Part shown: positions 2,681 through 9,502 of the stretch, one piece after another | How positions within the stretch are numbered: the stretch's first letter is position 1 | Layout of the letters: the number at the start of each line of letters is the position of its first letter | Assembly (NCBI RefSeq): GCF_017311415.1 | Contig: NZ_JAEKIS010000002.1 | Coordinates: 124,001 to 188,000, forward strand | Direction: 5' to 3' | Origin: Salipiger abyssi | GTDB taxonomy: Bacteria > Pseudomonadota > Alphaproteobacteria > Rhodobacterales > Rhodobacteraceae | Length of the DNA: 64,000 nucleotides | The notes under the pieces: model-generated | Database searches by the model: none | What the model saw: only the letters and a program-made list of their open reading frames with translations | What the model was told of the DNA's origin: nothing | Position numbers and translations under genes: made by a program

Positions 2681-4054
2681 ATGAGCGAGTGGAGCAAATC
2701 GAGCTGGAGAACCCTGCCGCGGATCCAGATGCCTGATTACGAGGATCAGGCCGAGCTGGCATCTGTCGAGGCGCAGCTTTCGAAATATCCGCCGCTGGTG
2801 TTTGCAGGCGAGGTGCGGCGCCTCCGCGACGAGCTTGGCAAGGCATCGCGCGGCGAAGCCTTTCTGTTGCAGGGCGGCGACTGTGCCGAAGCCTTCGAAC
2901 AGTTTTCCGCCAACGGGATCCGCGACACCTTCAAGGTGATGCTGCAAATGGCAATGGTGCTGACATATGGCGCCAAGGTGCCGGTGGTGAAGGTGGGTCG
3001 CATGGCCGGCCAGTTCGCCAAGCCGCGCTCCGCCCCCACCGAGACGGTGGACGGCGTCGAGCTGCCGAGCTTTCGCGGCGACATCATCAACGAGCTGGCC
3101 TTCACCCCCGAAGGTCGCCAGCCGAACCCTCAGAAGATGTTGCAGGCCTACACTCAGGCGGCGGCAACCCTGAACCTGATCCGCGCCTTCTCGACCGGCG
3201 GCTATGCGGATGTACATCAGGTGCACCAGTGGACGCTGGGCTTTACCGAGGGCGAAAAGGCCGCGCGCTACCGCGACATGGCCAACCGGATCTCGGACAC
3301 GCTGGACTTCATGAAAGCGGCGGGTGTCGATTCCAACCGCTCGGCGGCGCTGCATCAGGTGAATTTCTACACCTCGCACGAGGCGCTGCTGCTGGAATAC
3401 GAAGAGGCGCTGACCCGCGTCGACTCGACCTCGGGCAAGTGGCTGGCAGGCTCCGGACACATGATCTGGATCGGCGACCGCACGCGGCAGCCGGACGGCG
3501 CCCATGTCGATTATGCGCGCGGCGTGATGAACCCGATCGGCCTGAAATGCGGCCCTTCGATGACTGCCGAAGACCTCAAGGTGCTGATGGCCAAGCTGAA
3601 CCCGCTGAACGATCCGGGCCGGCTGACGCTGATCGCCCGCTTCGGCGCTGGCAAGGCCGGCGAGCATCTGCCGCGTCTCATCGAGACGGTGCGCAGCGAG
3701 GGTGCCAATGTGCTCTGGGTTTGCGATCCGATGCATGGCAATACGATCAAATCGGCCTCGGGTTACAAGACCCGGCCCTTTGACGCGGTGCTGCGCGAGG
3801 TGCGCGAGTTCTTTGCCGTTCACAAGGAATACGGCACGATCCCCGGCGGTGTGCATTTCGAGATGACCGGCGACGACGTCACCGAATGCACCGGCGGCAT
3901 GCGCGCGGTGACCGACGAAAACCTGTCGGACCGCTATCACACCGCCTGCGACCCGCGCCTGAACGCGTCGCAATCGCTGGAGCTGGCCTTCCTCGTCGCC
4001 GAAGAGCTGACCGCGCTGCGCGAGCGGCACCCGGCGGCAGTGGCTGCGGTCTGA
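2681..4054 (+). CDS. class II 3-deoxy-7-phosphoheptulonate (DAHP) synthase
   Basis: 457 aa, the usual length of plant/actinobacterial-type class II DAHP synthases, which condense phosphoenolpyruvate and erythrose-4-phosphate in the first step of the shikimate pathway (cytosol). Recognisable blocks: W(S)[15 protein letters not shown] at the N-terminus, [24 protein letters not shown] (metal cysteine), [58 protein letters not shown] and [15 protein letters not shown]. The ATG at 2681 follows GGGAGAGAGCC; longer in-frame upstream sequence has no family resemblance. The other shikimate gene in the window (aroQ, 25.6 kb) is unlinked. Followed by a strong terminator. Confidence 0.95.
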
Positions 4055-4072
4055 TTTGCGAAGACACGAACA

Positions 4073-4110
4073 GAAAACGGCCGCCGGAGGTCGGGCGGCC
4101 GTTTTCTTTT
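4073..4110 (+). terminator. intrinsic terminator of the DAHP synthase gene
   Basis: A perfect 13-bp inverted repeat (GAAAACGGCCGCC and its complement, 8-nt loop) followed by CTTTT. The A-run on the 5' arm means it can also act on the opposite strand, ending the converging GNAT gene. Confidence 0.85.
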
Positions 4111-4114
4111 GCGC

Positions 4115-4594
4115 TCAGGCGGTGTCGAGACGAAATTTCAGGAAGGTCTCGCCGTCATAGGCGATCTCGCCCAGACGCATCGCGCCCAACCGTGCCAGTC
4201 CGCCGAGATGGCGCCGCGACGGCGGCAGCAGGAAGGTGACATAGGGAATACGCGGATCGGCGCGGGCGAAATCGAGCGCCTGGCGGGTGACCCGCGCGCC
4301 GAGGCCAAAACGCTCCGGTGCCAGCACCAGACCGTAGTCCCATTCGGTGCCCTCTTTCTGGAATCCGCCCCAGCCGACATATTTGCCGCCGTGCAGGATG
4401 GCCCAGTGACCGAGACCGTCGCGCGCCCAATACGCCTCCTTGGCCCGCACAAATCCGGCGCAGCTGTCGTCGGTCCATGGCGTGCGTCCCAGAAGCGGCA
4501 TGTGCTCGGCGAGCCGCGGGTCGGACATATGCGCGTTGATGCGCTCGGGCGCGATGTCGGTGAGCCGGGCAAAGGCGATTTCGGGGCAGGACAT
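4115..4594 (-). CDS. GNAT family N-acetyltransferase
   Basis: 159 aa, the size of a single GNAT domain of the RimJ/L-like type. Visible are the N-terminal substrate-side region, WAILHGGKYVGWGGF in the central beta strands, and a WDYGLVLAPERFGLGARVTRQALDFA segment whose RFGLGARVT matches the acetyl-CoA pyrophosphate-binding loop. The substrate is unknown. The ATG at 4594 follows ACAGG at proper spacing; a TTG two codons upstream is the only longer option. It ends converging on the DAHP synthase terminator. It is not next to yjhX, so it should not be read as a YjhQ-type antitoxin. Confidence 0.7.
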   Translation of the reverse strand: MSCPEIAFARLTDIAPERINAHMSDPRLAEHMPLLGRTPWTDDSCAGFVRAKEAYWARDGLGHWAILHGGKYVGWGGFQKEGTEWDYGLVLAPERFGLGARVTRQALDFARADPRIPYVTFLLPPSRRHLGGLARLGAMRLGEIAYDGETFLKFRLDTA

Positions 4595-4713
4595 GGGCAA
4601 CCTGTCGGAAAGGGTATCTGCCCCTGCTTATAGGCTGTCGCAAAGAAGGGTCAGCGGCGAAAATCGCCGACTGACAGAGGTTTGATCGCTCGGTGAGAGA
4701 CGCCGTTGCGTTC

Positions 4714-6231
4714 TCAGGCCGTCTCGACCTGAGGTGCTTCCTCAGAGGCGGCCCCGAAATCCTTGGGCGAGAGCAGGGCGAGCTGATCCTCGGCCCAGTG
4801 CCGCGTGTCGCGCTTGGCCACCGAGGCGTTCAGAAGCTCCATGCGGGCGCGGCGCTCGTCCTCGGGCATGTCCAGCGCCATGTCGATAGCAAAATCCATC
4901 GCGCGGGAGGAGAACGGATTGGTCAGCACGGCGGCACCGAGCTCGACCGCGGCACCGGCGAATTCCGACAGCACCAGTACGCCATCGCCATCCTTGCGCG
5001 CGGCAACATATTCCTTGCAGACCAGGTTCATGCCGTCGGCCAGCGGCGTGATCCAGGCGACATCGGCCACCTGATACCAAGCGACCAACTCTTCGAAGGG
5101 GATGGCGCGGGAAATCAGCGCGACGGGCTGGAAGGTGAAGCTGCCGAAGCGGCCATTGATGCGACCCGCAATCTCTTCCAGCTCTTTCTGGATCGGCTCA
5201 TAGACCGTCATATTCCGGTTGGCGGGCACCGAGACATGCAGCAGCCGGACCTGACCGCGCAGCTCGGGCCGGCGTTCCAGCAGCCGCTCGAAGGCCAGGA
5301 GCTGGTGGGCACCGCCTTTGGTGTAATCGGTGCGCCCCACAGAGAGCAGCACGCGGGTGTGGCCGATCTCCGAGCGGAAGCGCGCGGCCAGCTTGTCGGT
5401 CTCCTCCGAAGCGGCAAGGCTTTTGATATAGTCCACATCCACGCCCACCGGGGTTACCCCGAGCTGCACCACATGATCCTCTACATGGATCTCCGTCGGG
5501 GTGGTGCGGTCGGAAAGCGCCGAGCCTTCGGACATCATGTCGTCCTCGACCTTGATGCGGGGCACATTGCCCACATCCCGCAACGAGCGCACGCAGGAGA
5601 TGAAATTCGACGCATAGCGCGGAATGTGGAAGCCCACCACATCTGCGGCCAGCAGCGATTCGATGATCTCGCCGCGCCAGGGCAGCACATTGAACATGTC
5701 GGCAGCCGGGAAGGGCGTATGATGATAGAAGGAGATGCGCAGATCCGGGCGCATCTGGCGCAGATAACCCGGCACCAGCCACAGATTGTAATCATGCACC
5801 CAGACGCTGGCGCCCTGCGCGGCCTCGGCGGCGGCGGCCTCGGCAAAGGCCCAGTTGACCTCCTTGAAGGTCGGCCAGTCGACCGGATCGTAGTTATATT
5901 TTTCCTTGAACCCGTGCAGGATCGGCCAGAACGCCTCTTTCGAGGTGACGTGGTAGAAGCTCTTTACCTGCGATGCGGTCAGCGGCAGACGCGAGACGGT
6001 GTATTTCCCAAAGGGATCCTCGATCTCGATCACCCGCTCGAAGCCGGGATCGGAGGGATCTTCGGCCTCTTTCCAGGCCACCCAGGCGGCATTCTCGACC
6101 TTGCCGAAAAAGCTCTTCAGCGTCGGAACGATGCCGTTCGGGCTCTTGTTGGCGACATATTCGATTTTACCGTCAACCTCGACCTCGTCGTAAGGCTGAC
6201 GGTGGTAGACGATCACCAGATCGCTGGACAT
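4714..6231 (-). CDS. ggpS: glucosylglycerol-phosphate synthase (GT20 family)
   Basis: 505 aa GT20 glycosyltransferase, predicted to join ADP-glucose and sn-glycerol-3-phosphate to form glucosylglycerol-phosphate in the cytosol. The start LVIVYHRQPYDEV, the SPNGIVPTLKSFF and WVAWK blocks, FYHVTSKEAFWPILH, WVHDYNLWLVP, FYHHTPFPAADMFN, GFHIPRYASNF and ADGMNLVCKEYVAA follow cyanobacterial GgpS much more closely than OtsA trehalose-phosphate synthase, which lacks the YHRxPYDEV start. The sugar-phosphate-binding RTDYTKGG is present. It is the last gene of a tight minus-strand operon with a HAD phosphatase (3 bp upstream) and gpsA, which supply dephosphorylation and the glycerol-3-phosphate acceptor. 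That context supports the GgpS reading; OtsA-type activity is the main alternative. Confidence 0.88.
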   Translation of the reverse strand: MSSDLVIVYHRQPYDEVEVDGKIEYVANKSPNGIVPTLKSFFGKVENAAWVAWKEAEDPSDPGFERVIEIEDPFGKYTVSRLPLTASQVKSFYHVTSKEAFWPILHGFKEKYNYDPVDWPTFKEVNWAFAEAAAAEAAQGASVWVHDYNLWLVPGYLRQMRPDLRISFYHHTPFPAADMFNVLPWRGEIIESLLAADVVGFHIPRYASNFISCVRSLRDVGNVPRIKVEDDMMSEGSALSDRTTPTEIHVEDHVVQLGVTPVGVDVDYIKSLAASEETDKLAARFRSEIGHTRVLLSVGRTDYTKGGAHQLLAFERLLERRPELRGQVRLLHVSVPANRNMTVYEPIQKELEEIAGRINGRFGSFTFQPVALISRAIPFEELVAWYQVADVAWITPLADGMNLVCKEYVAARKDGDGVLVLSEFAGAAVELGAAVLTNPFSSRAMDFAIDMALDMPEDERRARMELLNASVAKRDTRHWAEDQLALLSPKDFGAASEEAPQVETA

Positions 6232-6234
6232 GGC

Positions 6235-7011
6235 TCACACTCCTTTCGGGAGGGGATGCAGGTTGAAGGCCTCGACCGCCTCCAGAATGCCCGCCGCGCC
6301 GATGGCCTCGGCAGTGTGGACATGAGGCAGGTTCGACACCTGATCGAGAAGCTCCTGCTCGGCGCCGCCGACGGCGACAGCCTGGAGCCCGCATTGCAGC
6401 ATCGACAGATCGTTGAGCGTGTCGCCCGCCGCCAGCACGCGGCCTTCCTCGATGCCGAGATGTTTGACGAGCCGACGCAGCGACGGCCCTTTAGAGATCC
6501 CGCGCGGCAGCACGTCGAAATAGCGGTTGTCCGAGACCAGCGGGTCATGACCCATCTCGCGCACGATATCATGCGCGCTGTCGTCGAATGCCGCATGATC
6601 GAGATCGTAGCTCACCCGATAGCGGAAATCCGTCGGTTGCAGCGTCAGGCCGGGGTGACCGTGCAGCGTTTCGCGCACCTTGTCACCGGCATCGCCCCAG
6701 GTCTCGGCGATCTCTACCTCCAGAGGTTCGATGGGGTGGATCTTGCCGTCTTCGACACGGGCGATGGTGGTGCCCACATCGCCCACCACATATTCCGGCC
6801 AGGGCACACCCCCGTCACAGAGCTCGCCGATGAATTTCGGATCGCGGCCGGTGACGAAGATCAGCCCGATCGTATCGCGGTTGGCTTCGATCCAGTCATA
6901 GAGACGCGCGCGATCCTCTTCGGAACCGCCCAGAAAGGTGCCGTCGAGATCGGTGGCCAGCACGAAACGGCAGCCGGCGATGTCGCGGTTATGGGGATGA
7001 TCGAAGCTCAT
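6235..7011 (-). CDS. HAD-IIB phosphatase, probable glucosylglycerol-3-phosphatase
   Basis: 258 aa HAD superfamily subclass IIB (sucrose-phosphatase/MPG-phosphatase-like). Motif I is FVLATDLDGTFLGG, motif II the LIFVTGRDPKF threonine, motif III a lysine in ISKGPSLRRLVKHLGI, and motif IV AAGDTLNDLSML. It sits between gpsA (ATGA overlap at 7008-7011, so translation is coupled) and ggpS (3 bp gap), so the likely substrate is glucosylglycerol-phosphate, released as the osmolyte glucosylglycerol. This assignment rests on context; the sequence alone says only sugar-phosphate phosphatase. The ATG at 7011 was chosen because it starts just before the HAD domain and gives the coupling overlap. Confidence 0.8.
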   Translation of the reverse strand: MSFDHPHNRDIAGCRFVLATDLDGTFLGGSEEDRARLYDWIEANRDTIGLIFVTGRDPKFIGELCDGGVPWPEYVVGDVGTTIARVEDGKIHPIEPLEVEIAETWGDAGDKVRETLHGHPGLTLQPTDFRYRVSYDLDHAAFDDSAHDIVREMGHDPLVSDNRYFDVLPRGISKGPSLRRLVKHLGIEEGRVLAAGDTLNDLSMLQCGLQAVAVGGAEQELLDQVSNLPHVHTAEAIGAAGILEAVEAFNLHPLPKGV

Positions 7012-8141
7012 GCGGGGTCTCCCTGATGCGGGTGAAGCGTGATGTCGAGCGCGCGCGGTTCGCCCTCGATGGGGCGCATCCACAGTTTCTGGAAGGTCTC
7101 GGTGAGCGGCGCACCTTCGTGCAGGATCGCGTGCACCGCCTCGCAGATCGGCATCTCGACGCCGACGCGGCGCGCCAGATCGACCACCGAGACCGCGTTG
7201 ACCTCGCCCTCGACCACAGTGGGCTTGCCGTCGAAACAGGACTCGCGCGGGATGCCCTGGCCGAGCTGTGTGCCCAGCGACATGTTGCGCGAGGTGGTGG
7301 AGGAGCAGGTCAGCGTCAGATCGCCGGCACCGGCGAGGCCGGTAACGGTCTCGCGCTTGCCGCCGAGCGCCTCGGCCAATGCCTTCATCTCGTCCATGCC
7401 GCGGGTGATCAGCGCCGCGCGGGTGTTCTCGGCAAAGCCGGCGCCGGTCATCATGCCGCAGGCGATGGCGATCACGTTCTTAACCGCGCCGCCGACCTCG
7501 ACCCCGATCAGATCGTCGGAGACATAGGGGCGGAAGGCCTGGGTCTGCATGGTCAGCGCCAACCGCGCCGCCGGTGCGCTTTCAGGCGCGATGCGGTCGT
7601 GATGGCGGAAGGGGAAGGCCACGGTGGCGGCGGTCGGGTGCCCCAGCGCGGTCTCGCGCGCAAAGGTCGGACCGGAGAGCGCGCCGACCGGATGGCCGGG
7701 CAATTCTTCCTCGACAACATGGCTGAGCAGGAACCCGGTGCCGCGCTCGATCCCCTTGCAACAAAGCGCAATCGGAATGCCCTCGGGCAGGTGCGGTTTC
7801 ATCGCCCGTGTCATCTCGCGCAGTGTGTGCGACGGCGTCACCAAAAGCACGGCTTCGGCGCCGTTTAGCGCGGCTGCGAGATCGGAGGTCGGATGCAAAC
7901 CAGCGGGAAGGTCGATGCCGGGCAGATGTTCAGGGTTCTGCCGGGTTTCGGCCATCGCGTCGGCAAGGCTCTGCCTTCGCCCCCAGAGCCAGGTTTCGCA
8001 ACCGGCCGAGGCCGCGACTGCGGCCAGGGCGGTGCCCCAGCTCCCCATGCCGATCACGGCAATCCGAGTATAAGGTTCAGCGCGGCGGGGCGTTTGCCCG
8101 TCGTTGCGCGTGGGCGGGATGTCGACTCTCTGTCCGTCCAT
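7008..8141 (-). CDS. gpsA: NAD(P)-dependent glycerol-3-phosphate dehydrogenase
   Basis: About 377 aa; reduces dihydroxyacetone phosphate to sn-glycerol-3-phosphate. The Rossmann motif IAVIGMGSWGTALA, LLVTPSHTLREM, ALSGPTFARE, the catalytic-lysine block VGGAVKNVIAIACGM and AGAGDLTLTCSSTTSRN are all present. First gene of the gpsA-phosphatase-ggpS operon, so it probably supplies acceptor for glucosylglycerol synthesis rather than, or in addition to, phospholipid synthesis. The N-terminus is uncertain: the ATG at 8141 adds about 25 residues before the usual start, has only a weak ribosome site, and an ATG at 8249 is also in frame. Whether a second housekeeping gpsA exists elsewhere cannot be seen here. 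Confidence 0.92.
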   Translation of the reverse strand: MDGQRVDIPPTRNDGQTPRRAEPYTRIAVIGMGSWGTALAAVAASAGCETWLWGRRQSLADAMAETRQNPEHLPGIDLPAGLHPTSDLAAALNGAEAVLLVTPSHTLREMTRAMKPHLPEGIPIALCCKGIERGTGFLLSHVVEEELPGHPVGALSGPTFARETALGHPTAATVAFPFRHHDRIAPESAPAARLALTMQTQAFRPYVSDDLIGVEVGGAVKNVIAIACGMMTGAGFAENTRAALITRGMDEMKALAEALGGKRETVTGLAGAGDLTLTCSSTTSRNMSLGTQLGQGIPRESCFDGKPTVVEGEVNAVSVVDLARRVGVEMPICEAVHAILHEGAPLTETFQKLWMRPIEGEPRALDITLHPHQGDPA

Positions 8142-8200
8142 AACAATGTGCCAATCTGCCCTTCCTAAGGGCTGCCGGCCAATGTGGCTCACTCCGTGTT

Positions 8201-8218
8201 GTGTTAAGCTAGTAACAC
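8201..8218. promoter_or_regulatory. inverted repeat, candidate operator of the gpsA-ggpS operon
   Basis: GTGTTA-AGCTAG-TAACAC: perfect 6-bp arms around a 6-nt centre, 60 bp upstream of the chosen gpsA start, with a further partial TTACAC copy just beyond. The size suits a dimeric repressor or activator. No regulator can be named. Confidence 0.45.
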
Positions 8219-8234
8219 TTACACTAGGCGTTGA

Positions 8235-8246
8235 GTTCCATGGAAC
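8235..8246. promoter_or_regulatory. 12-bp perfect palindrome upstream of gpsA operon
   Basis: GTTCCATGGAAC, fully self-complementary, 17 bp beyond the GTGTTA/TAACAC site. Two different palindromes close together before an osmolyte operon suggest regulated transcription, but a 12-bp palindrome can also occur by chance. Confidence 0.3.
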
Positions 8247-8590
8247 CAAGATCCTGCGGCAATTTTTCTGCGCCAGCGAGGGCTGGACAAGGTTCGCTTA
8301 AATTTTCAACTTAATTTTCGGCGATCTGCCCTCAATTCAACCGAAATGGATGCAATTTTTACACGAAGTCACGATTTTTTCCGATCATTACCTGCCTACG
8401 GAACAAGCTATTGAAATAACGCATTTTTGTGAATGGGGTAAAGAGAGCGTACTTGACGCCTATTTGGTCAGATTTTGCAGTCTGCGGCGGACCCTAATTT
8501 TGAAATTCGCGAGAAACGGCATAGTCTCTTACGCATATGCCGCACTGCGGCGCTAGCGATCACCGACGATCATGCAAAGGAGAGCCCACC

Positions 8591-9502
8591 GTGACGACCC
8601 CTCGAAAGAAGACTAGCCAGCCCGTGCGCACTGCGATCTTCCCCGTGGCCGGTCTCGGCACGCGCTTTCTTCCGGCGACCAAAGCCACGCCCAAGGAGCT
8701 GCTGCCGGTGCTCGACCGTCCGCTGCTGCAATTCGCCATCGACGAGGCGCGCGCGGCGGGCATCGAGCGTATGATCTTTGTCTCACACCCGTCGAAATCC
8801 GCCATTGAACGCTATGTGCATGCGGATGAAGAGCTTTCCGCCACCTTGCGCGAGAAGGGCAAGCATCAAATCGCCGATCACCTGGACGACGCGGCCATTG
8901 ACCCGGAGGCCGAGCAGGCGCATTTCGTCATGCAGCCCGAACCGCTGGGGCTGGGCCATGCGGTGCTCTGTGCGGCGGACGAGGTTCTGCCCGGGCCGGT
9001 GGCGGTGATCCTGCCGGACGATCTGATCATGGGGGAACCGGGCTGTCTCAGCGAAATGCTCGAGGCCTATGCAGAGGGCGGTGCCGGCCACATGGTCGCG
9101 ACGATGGAGGTCGCGCGGGACGAGGTTTCCGCCTATGGCGTGCTCGACCCGCTGGGCGATGCCGAGGGCCAGATGGTGCGTGCCTCGGGCATGGTCGAAA
9201 AGCCGGAAGCCGAGAAAGCGCCGTCTCTTCAGGCGGTTGTCGGGCGATATGTGCTCGATGCCTCGATCTTCGACGACCTGCGCAATCAGGAACCGGGGCT
9301 GGGTGGCGAGATCCAGCTTACCGATGCCATCGCCAAGGGTGTGGAACGGGTCGGGCTCTGCGGCTTCCGCTTCAGCGGGCAGCGCTTCGATTGCGGCTCG
9401 AAAGCGGGCATGCTGCGCGCAACACTGGCCTATGCCGGCATGCATGAAGAATTCCATCCGGTTTTGCAGACCGAAACGTCGCTTGCGATGGCGGCTGAAT
9501 AA
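8591..9502 (+). CDS. galU: UTP--glucose-1-phosphate uridylyltransferase
   Basis: 303 aa; makes UDP-glucose for exopolysaccharide, glycolipid and cell-envelope synthesis. The nucleotide-binding FPVAGLGTRFLPATKATPKELLP signature, FVSHPSKSAIERY, QPEPLGLGHAVLCA, VILPDDLIM, GMVEKP, GRYVLDASIFD and GGEIQLTDAI match GalU throughout. The GTG at 8591 is chosen because AAAGGAGA lies about 8 bp upstream and the protein then has normal length. Monocistronic, closed by an intrinsic terminator. Its product differs from the ADP-glucose expected by GgpS, so the neighbouring osmolyte operon is probably not metabolically tied to it. Confidence 0.95.
   Translation: MTTPRKKTSQPVRTAIFPVAGLGTRFLPATKATPKELLPVLDRPLLQFAIDEARAAGIERMIFVSHPSKSAIERYVHADEELSATLREKGKHQIADHLDDAAIDPEAEQAHFVMQPEPLGLGHAVLCAADEVLPGPVAVILPDDLIMGEPGCLSEMLEAYAEGGAGHMVATMEVARDEVSAYGVLDPLGDAEGQMVRASGMVEKPEAEKAPSLQAVVGRYVLDASIFDDLRNQEPGLGGEIQLTDAIAKGVERVGLCGFRFSGQRFDCGSKAGMLRATLAYAGMHEEFHPVLQTETSLAMAAE

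Follow-up and report, generated by a model that had tools for sequence, protein, structure and literature searches.

A gpsA-phosphatase-ggpS operon, probably for glucosylglycerol synthesis, in Salipiger abyssi and other alphaproteobacteria

Three tightly coupled genes lie on the reverse strand of a 64,000-nucleotide stretch of the Salipiger abyssi genome (assembly GCF_017311415.1, contig NZ_JAEKIS010000002.1, positions 124,001 to 188,000). This whole stretch is referred to here as the window, and positions are counted from its first letter. In reading order they are gpsA (7008..8141; 377 amino acids, ATG at 8141, stop at 7008), a stand-alone phosphatase of the HAD-IIB type (6235..7011; 258 amino acids, ATG at 7011, stop at 6235), and ggpS, the gene of a GT20 synthase (4714..6231; 505 amino acids). 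The gpsA-phosphatase junction is ATGA, the ATG of the phosphatase overlapping the TGA of gpsA, and the phosphatase stop codon (6235-6237) is followed after a gap of 3 bp by the ATG of ggpS. All of these coordinates, lengths and junctions had been given in an earlier interpretation made from the letters alone (the sequence-only reading), and re-reading of the open reading frames (ORFs) reproduces them exactly. What follows argues that the operon very probably makes 2-O-alpha-glucosylglycerol, a sugar-alcohol that guards cells against salt, as a compatible solute.

The synthase scores 659.3 bits against TIGR02398, the NCBI equivalog model of glucosylglycerol-phosphate synthase (cut-off 569), and only 409.2 bits against the OtsA model TIGR02400 (cut-off 564.85). 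A maximum-likelihood tree of 44 rows, made by a quick method with 21 of the 80 relatives described below, separates 36 GgpS-type rows from 8 OtsA rows with a Shimodaira-Hasegawa-like approximate likelihood ratio test (SH-aLRT) value of 100, subject to a long-branch warning for the OtsA rows. The GgpS-type side comprises 30 alphaproteobacterial rows including the window's own, five fused proteins of the GgpPS type, and one other row. The 505-residue protein thus stands with the GgpPS-type proteins and outside the OtsA clade in a tree that holds no cyanobacterial row; its cyanobacterial likeness was judged through the TIGR02398 model and through the fused GgpPS-type proteins. The signature strings YHR, PNGI, HDYNLW and [FY]HHT occur in all 98 GgpS rows and SKEA in 97 of them, and none is found in the eight OtsA rows (for one of these, L148, the first residues are missing from the piece compared). 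The longer blocks cited in the sequence-only reading, YHRQPYDEV, SPNGIVPTLKSFF and FYHVTSKEAFWPILH, are all present in the protein. A profile search of the genome with TIGR02398, in which the E. coli OtsA control does ring, gave a single match, the window's ggpS; thus no OtsA was seen.

The three-gene arrangement recurs widely. Relatives were taken as the best 80 of 574 confirmed sequence matches; the closest among the matches listed is Salipiger pentaromativorans, with a ggpS 95% identical to that of the window. The phosphatase adjoins ggpS in all 80 fetched relatives, and gpsA is also present in 72. When start codons are placed by alignment, the gap between phosphatase and ggpS is -11 to 46 bp in 79 relatives and 104 bp in the remaining one, and the gpsA-phosphatase gap is -31 to 30 bp in 72 of 72. 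Co-occurrence of the three genes is far beyond chance. Weighing on the other side are the eight relatives whose fetched stretch is without gpsA (L033, L035, L045, L046, L050, L052, L054 and L068; that of L052 reaches only 1.5 kb upstream). The same three genes are found, annotated, on plasmid pDSHI02 of Dinoroseobacter shibae and on a Falsirhodobacter plasmid. Family models, tree, diagnostic residues and conserved gene order together uphold two claims of the sequence-only reading: that the synthase is GgpS and not OtsA, and that one operon encodes acceptor supply, condensation and dephosphorylation.

A ggpS above cut-off is present in 20 of 20 genomes of the genus; in wider samples it was found in 41 of 248 family genomes, 11 of 289 class genomes and 12 of 398 phylum genomes (the window's own genome is counted in each tally). 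Given the family and genus figures, glucosylglycerol production may be commoner among alphaproteobacteria. One of the 80 relatives, L035 (JAFKDC010000001.1), is titled Enemella evansiae, an actinobacterium; its ggpS and phosphatase are 62-69% identical to the window's, and the record is probably a case of contamination or mislabelling.

The phosphatase matches the Pfam family S6PP (PF05116) at 136.7 bits and TIGR01484 (HAD-IIB) at 56.9 bits (cut-off 41.8). TIGR02399 (salt-tolerance phosphatase GgpP/StpA), which we take to be the model of the cyanobacterial enzyme, is not among the 16 families that it matched; a genome search with TIGR02399 likewise gave no match, though no control genome rang either. 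The informative comparison is with five fused proteins that the phylum search brought up in other classes of the same phylum, in open frames of 761-828 residues (locus L096 is cut by a contig end, and the model match of L098 contains one TGA), and that were taken as GgpPS from their domain build. Their N-terminal phosphatase domain is 36-43% identical to the window phosphatase (E 2e-32 to 2e-48), and it is followed in one frame by a synthase part 45-46% identical to the window synthase. The positions of the HAD motifs (DLDGT, K and GDTLND) align across all 20 rows compared. Since the N-terminal domain of the fused proteins is homologous and these positions align, the window phosphatase corresponds, as an independent protein, to the N-terminal half of fused GgpPS, and it is a probable glucosylglycerol-phosphate phosphatase. 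That it is a separate protein and not part of a fused GgpPS chain, as the sequence-only reading held, follows from its own stop codon and the 3-bp gap in front of the ggpS ATG. An unfused case from outside the class, L103, has a phosphatase (758-1454) that adjoins ggpS and reads in two frames, by frameshift or assembly error.

The pathway would then run as follows. GpsA would reduce dihydroxyacetone phosphate to glycerol-3-phosphate, GgpS would glucosylate glycerol-3-phosphate with a nucleotide sugar as donor (most likely ADP-glucose), and the HAD-IIB phosphatase would release glucosylglycerol. The window gpsA passes the model of NAD(P)H-dependent glycerol-3-phosphate dehydrogenase (NF000942, 381 bits, cut-off 257), and the presence of gpsA in 72 of the 80 relatives points to glycerol-3-phosphate as the acceptor. 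In the profile search glgC is over its cut-off in the window's genome, so that ADP-glucose can probably be made; this makes it the most likely donor. The sequences show directly what the genes are, how they are coupled and conserved, that the operon gpsA forms a lineage of its own, and that an upstream motif is present; we infer from them the product, the donor, salt induction and sigma-factor control.

A donor other than ADP-glucose, namely UDP-glucose, or an acceptor that is some other polyol phosphate, is distinctly unlikely. The case for UDP-glucose comes from a divergent neighbour, a galU-like gene of UTP-glucose-1-phosphate uridylyltransferase (8537..9502, forward strand; TIGR01099, 271 bits, below the cut-off of 326.8), which lies on the opposite strand from the operon in 33 of the 80 relatives and could hint at this donor; the family model of the synthase, moreover, does not settle donor preference. 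However, galU lies within the fetched stretch of only 34 relatives and was not found in those of the other 46, it is divergent rather than co-directional, and glgC is present in the genome; the conserved gpsA neighbour argues against another acceptor. A place for galU in the pathway was considered on these counts and was not adopted.

The genome has a second gpsA, a fact that the sequence-only reading had missed, at position 536467 of contig 1 (G000:C1:536467), 39.7% identical to the window copy and located beside tsaD (TIGR03723, 352 bits, cut-off 296); tsaD linkage was checked for this second copy of the window's genome only. Identity to the window gpsA is 62-66% for the operon copies of the other three family genomes tested and 48.8-54.5% for the operon copies of seven class genomes outside the family; it is 35-42% for 14 tsaD-type or single family copies, and 38-49% for 13 copies of class members that have no ggpS. 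In a gpsA tree of 61 rows, for which 23 of the 72 gpsA-bearing relatives were used, one branch (SH-aLRT 95) sets the 36 operon copies apart, and another (99) does so for the 14 other family copies. In the copy-number set of 21 genomes, two gpsA were counted in 4 of 4 ggpS-bearing family genomes and one in 10 of 10 family genomes without ggpS. Because of these copy numbers, we regard the operon gpsA of the window's family as an extra, pathway-linked copy, judged by gene content; it would serve the pathway there, apart from the housekeeping copy.

Three observations weigh against so simple a picture. All seven ggpS-bearing genomes elsewhere in the class have a single gpsA, which by its coordinates is the copy beside ggpS. 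Among 12 class members without ggpS, nine have one gpsA and one (77% complete) has none; the other two have two copies. The gpsA of some ggpS-less members is 48.1-48.8% identical to the window copy, a level at which two of the seven operon copies from the class also stand (48.8 and 48.9%), and this overlap argues against a sharp divide outside the family. Since the operon copy is the sole gpsA found in the seven class genomes, it would not be dedicated to the pathway there: as far as gene content tells, either lipid synthesis must draw on it as well or there is another source. That the operon gpsA is nothing more than an ordinary housekeeping copy, placed beside ggpS by happenstance, can draw on these sole copies and on the nearly equal similarity of some copies from ggpS-less class members. 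It is nevertheless quite improbable: the genome's second copy adjoins tsaD and falls in one group with 13 further copies of the family (99), and the 36 sampled operon copies group together (95). A bolder and rather doubtful idea, to be offered tentatively, is that the operon gpsA might encode a specialised enzyme (e.g., one freed from shut-off by its product) that travelled with ggpS across the Alphaproteobacteria and replaced the housekeeping gpsA in several lineages; we rate it lower because the copies of ggpS-less members are as similar as two of the seven operon copies. If it were true, a membrane-lipid precursor and a salt protectant would both depend on one stress-linked operon.

Regulation is suggested by a promoter-like site of the EcfG type, GGAAC-N17-TGTT (8214..8239, reverse strand), 98 bp upstream of the gpsA ATG and one base off CGTT. 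For the general stress sigma factor of Caulobacter, PMC5869019 gives the criterion GGAAC plus CGTT with 15-17 bp spacing. Of 13 loci from Salipiger, Alloyangia and Citreicella, 11 carry GGAAC-N16/17-CGTT at a distance of 93-104 bp upstream; L002 is without a match, and the only match of L011 stands at 272 bp. Overall the motif is present in 20 of 83 upstream stretches (among them that of L074, which has no match, runs to 4,192 bases as compared with about 300, and has its gpsA start beyond the contig). In 100 shuffles the mean was 0.76 and the maximum 6; the background was 79 of 6858 tiles, and the reverse strand of the same stretches gave 6 of 83. A sigma-70 scan of positions 4000-8700 of the window found no site. 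A 12-base palindrome, GTTCCATGGAAC (8235-8246), overlaps the GGAAC element, and similar inverted repeats are present in some close relatives.

On D. shibae pDSHI02 a phospholipase D family gene comes after the operon, and next to it (L104:11998-15400) are genes annotated as a sensor kinase, a sigma factor, a NepR-family anti-sigma factor and a response regulator. These regulator genes beside ggpS suggest that the operon is tied to the general stress response; in Caulobacter, SigT/EcfG takes part in the response to osmotic stress (PMC3073932). Several facts pull the other way: outside the close relatives the motif occurs in 8 of 70 stretches, which is not clearly above the reverse-strand figure, the window's own -10 element is the one that is a base off, and of the 80 relatives just one (L070) has sigma-factor and NepR matches close to the operon. 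Among the close relatives, which are not mutually independent, the case for the motif is good; the alphaproteobacterial general stress sigma factor probably activates the operon in this genus.

A GH13 gene resembling sucrose phosphorylase lies outside the window, about 32 kb from ggpS (G000:C2:95459-96865; L131:1213-3066). It scores 213 bits against the sucrose phosphorylase model TIGR03852, below the cut-off of 334.4, and among solved sequences 203 bits against a sucrose phosphorylase and 176 bits against a glucosylglycerol phosphorylase; it is a candidate for glucosylglycerol turnover. Turnover of this kind could make carbon available, and glucosylglycerol might then be mainly a carbon store, or else a head-group precursor, rather than a salt protectant. 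We consider this very unlikely: in the bacteria described, glucosylglycerol acts as a solute against salt stress (PMC10873239), and the EcfG-type motif and the D. shibae stress-regulator genes fit stress induction.

It is hardly credible that the GT20 enzyme is OtsA, the phosphatase OtsB-like and the product trehalose, even though GT20 is a shared family, identity to the eight OtsA proteins is 30-37%, and the 23 matched solved sequences are named trehalose-phosphate synthase/phosphatase, VldE-type or putative glycosyltransferase, none of them glucosylglycerol: the OtsA cut-off is missed by 155 bits, the synthase stands off the OtsA branch with a support of 100, the phosphatase matches S6PP and HAD-IIB and no trehalose-phosphatase model, and in the fetched OtsA loci the neighbour is otsB in seven of eight and a fused phosphatase in the eighth.

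ORFs of at least 120 residues were clustered over 83 loci; among the 30 largest clusters, the most widespread correspond to the three operon genes and shadow frames of these, to galU, and to low-complexity sequence in 37 loci, and the remaining ones are, by eye, shadow ORFs or confined to related loci. A terminator-like hairpin (4650..4671, reverse strand) lies 42 bp past the ggpS stop; it is weak evidence for the end of the operon, five such sites being found in the stretch with 2.9 expected. The ORF at 4115-4600, GNAT-like by eye, was rejected as an operon member: it has no family match and, at the threshold used, a relative in only 1 of 80 loci. A gene for an AraC-type regulator resembling GbdR (named for choline metabolism) lies at 1474-2496 on the reverse strand, some 2.2 kb past ggpS; it scores 364 bits against NF052371, below the cut-off of 480, and recurs near the operon in close relatives.

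The sequence-only reading had also predicted that automatic annotation would call the synthase OtsA. This proved wrong: RefSeq names it ggpS, glucosylglycerol-phosphate synthase, in all four annotated plasmid records of at least 60% identity (three from Dinoroseobacter shibae and one from Falsirhodobacter). The phosphatase, in two records (D. shibae and Falsirhodobacter), is annotated merely as 'HAD family hydrolase' or 'HAD-IIB family hydrolase', and the present analysis supplies a likely name for it. Rhodobacter (Rhodovulum) sulfidophilus is reported to accumulate glucosylglycerol; literature searches on this turned up nothing relevant. Among the open-licence papers in the matches listed, none describes the coupled three-gene form or a free-standing GgpPS-type phosphatase. 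Both the two-step pathway and fused GgpPS have been described before (PMC10873239 and PMC6753628), and an alphaproteobacterial synthase is in print at least as one table line, for Paraoceanicella profunda (PMC7002103). The operon also provides a natural setting in which to ask whether the pathway is limited by its supply of acceptor.

Compared with known systems, the operon resembles OtsA/OtsB in having a GT20 synthase beside a sugar-phosphate phosphatase gene; it differs in the branch of the synthase, the family of the phosphatase and, judging from gpsA, presumably the acceptor. With the cyanobacterial GgpS and GgpP (Synechocystis sll1566 and slr0746, tags from PMC10873239) it shares the separation of synthase and phosphatase, and its synthase passes the TIGR02398 equivalog model; its phosphatase, however, is without a TIGR02399 match, and its three genes are all coupled. 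A figure legend of PMC6753628 names gpsA, glpD and glpK around cyanobacterial ggpS. With fused GgpPS (Stenotrophomonas, Pseudomonas, Azotobacter and Marinobacter examples in PMC10873239) both domains are homologous, whereas in the window each is encoded by its own gene and gpsA precedes the pair; gpsA was unmatched in the loci of the five fused proteins, which reach only ~1.5 kb past the synthase match on either side. The operon is thus a known pathway in a compact and recurrent alphaproteobacterial arrangement, distinguished by an extra gpsA and by a probable stress-type promoter.

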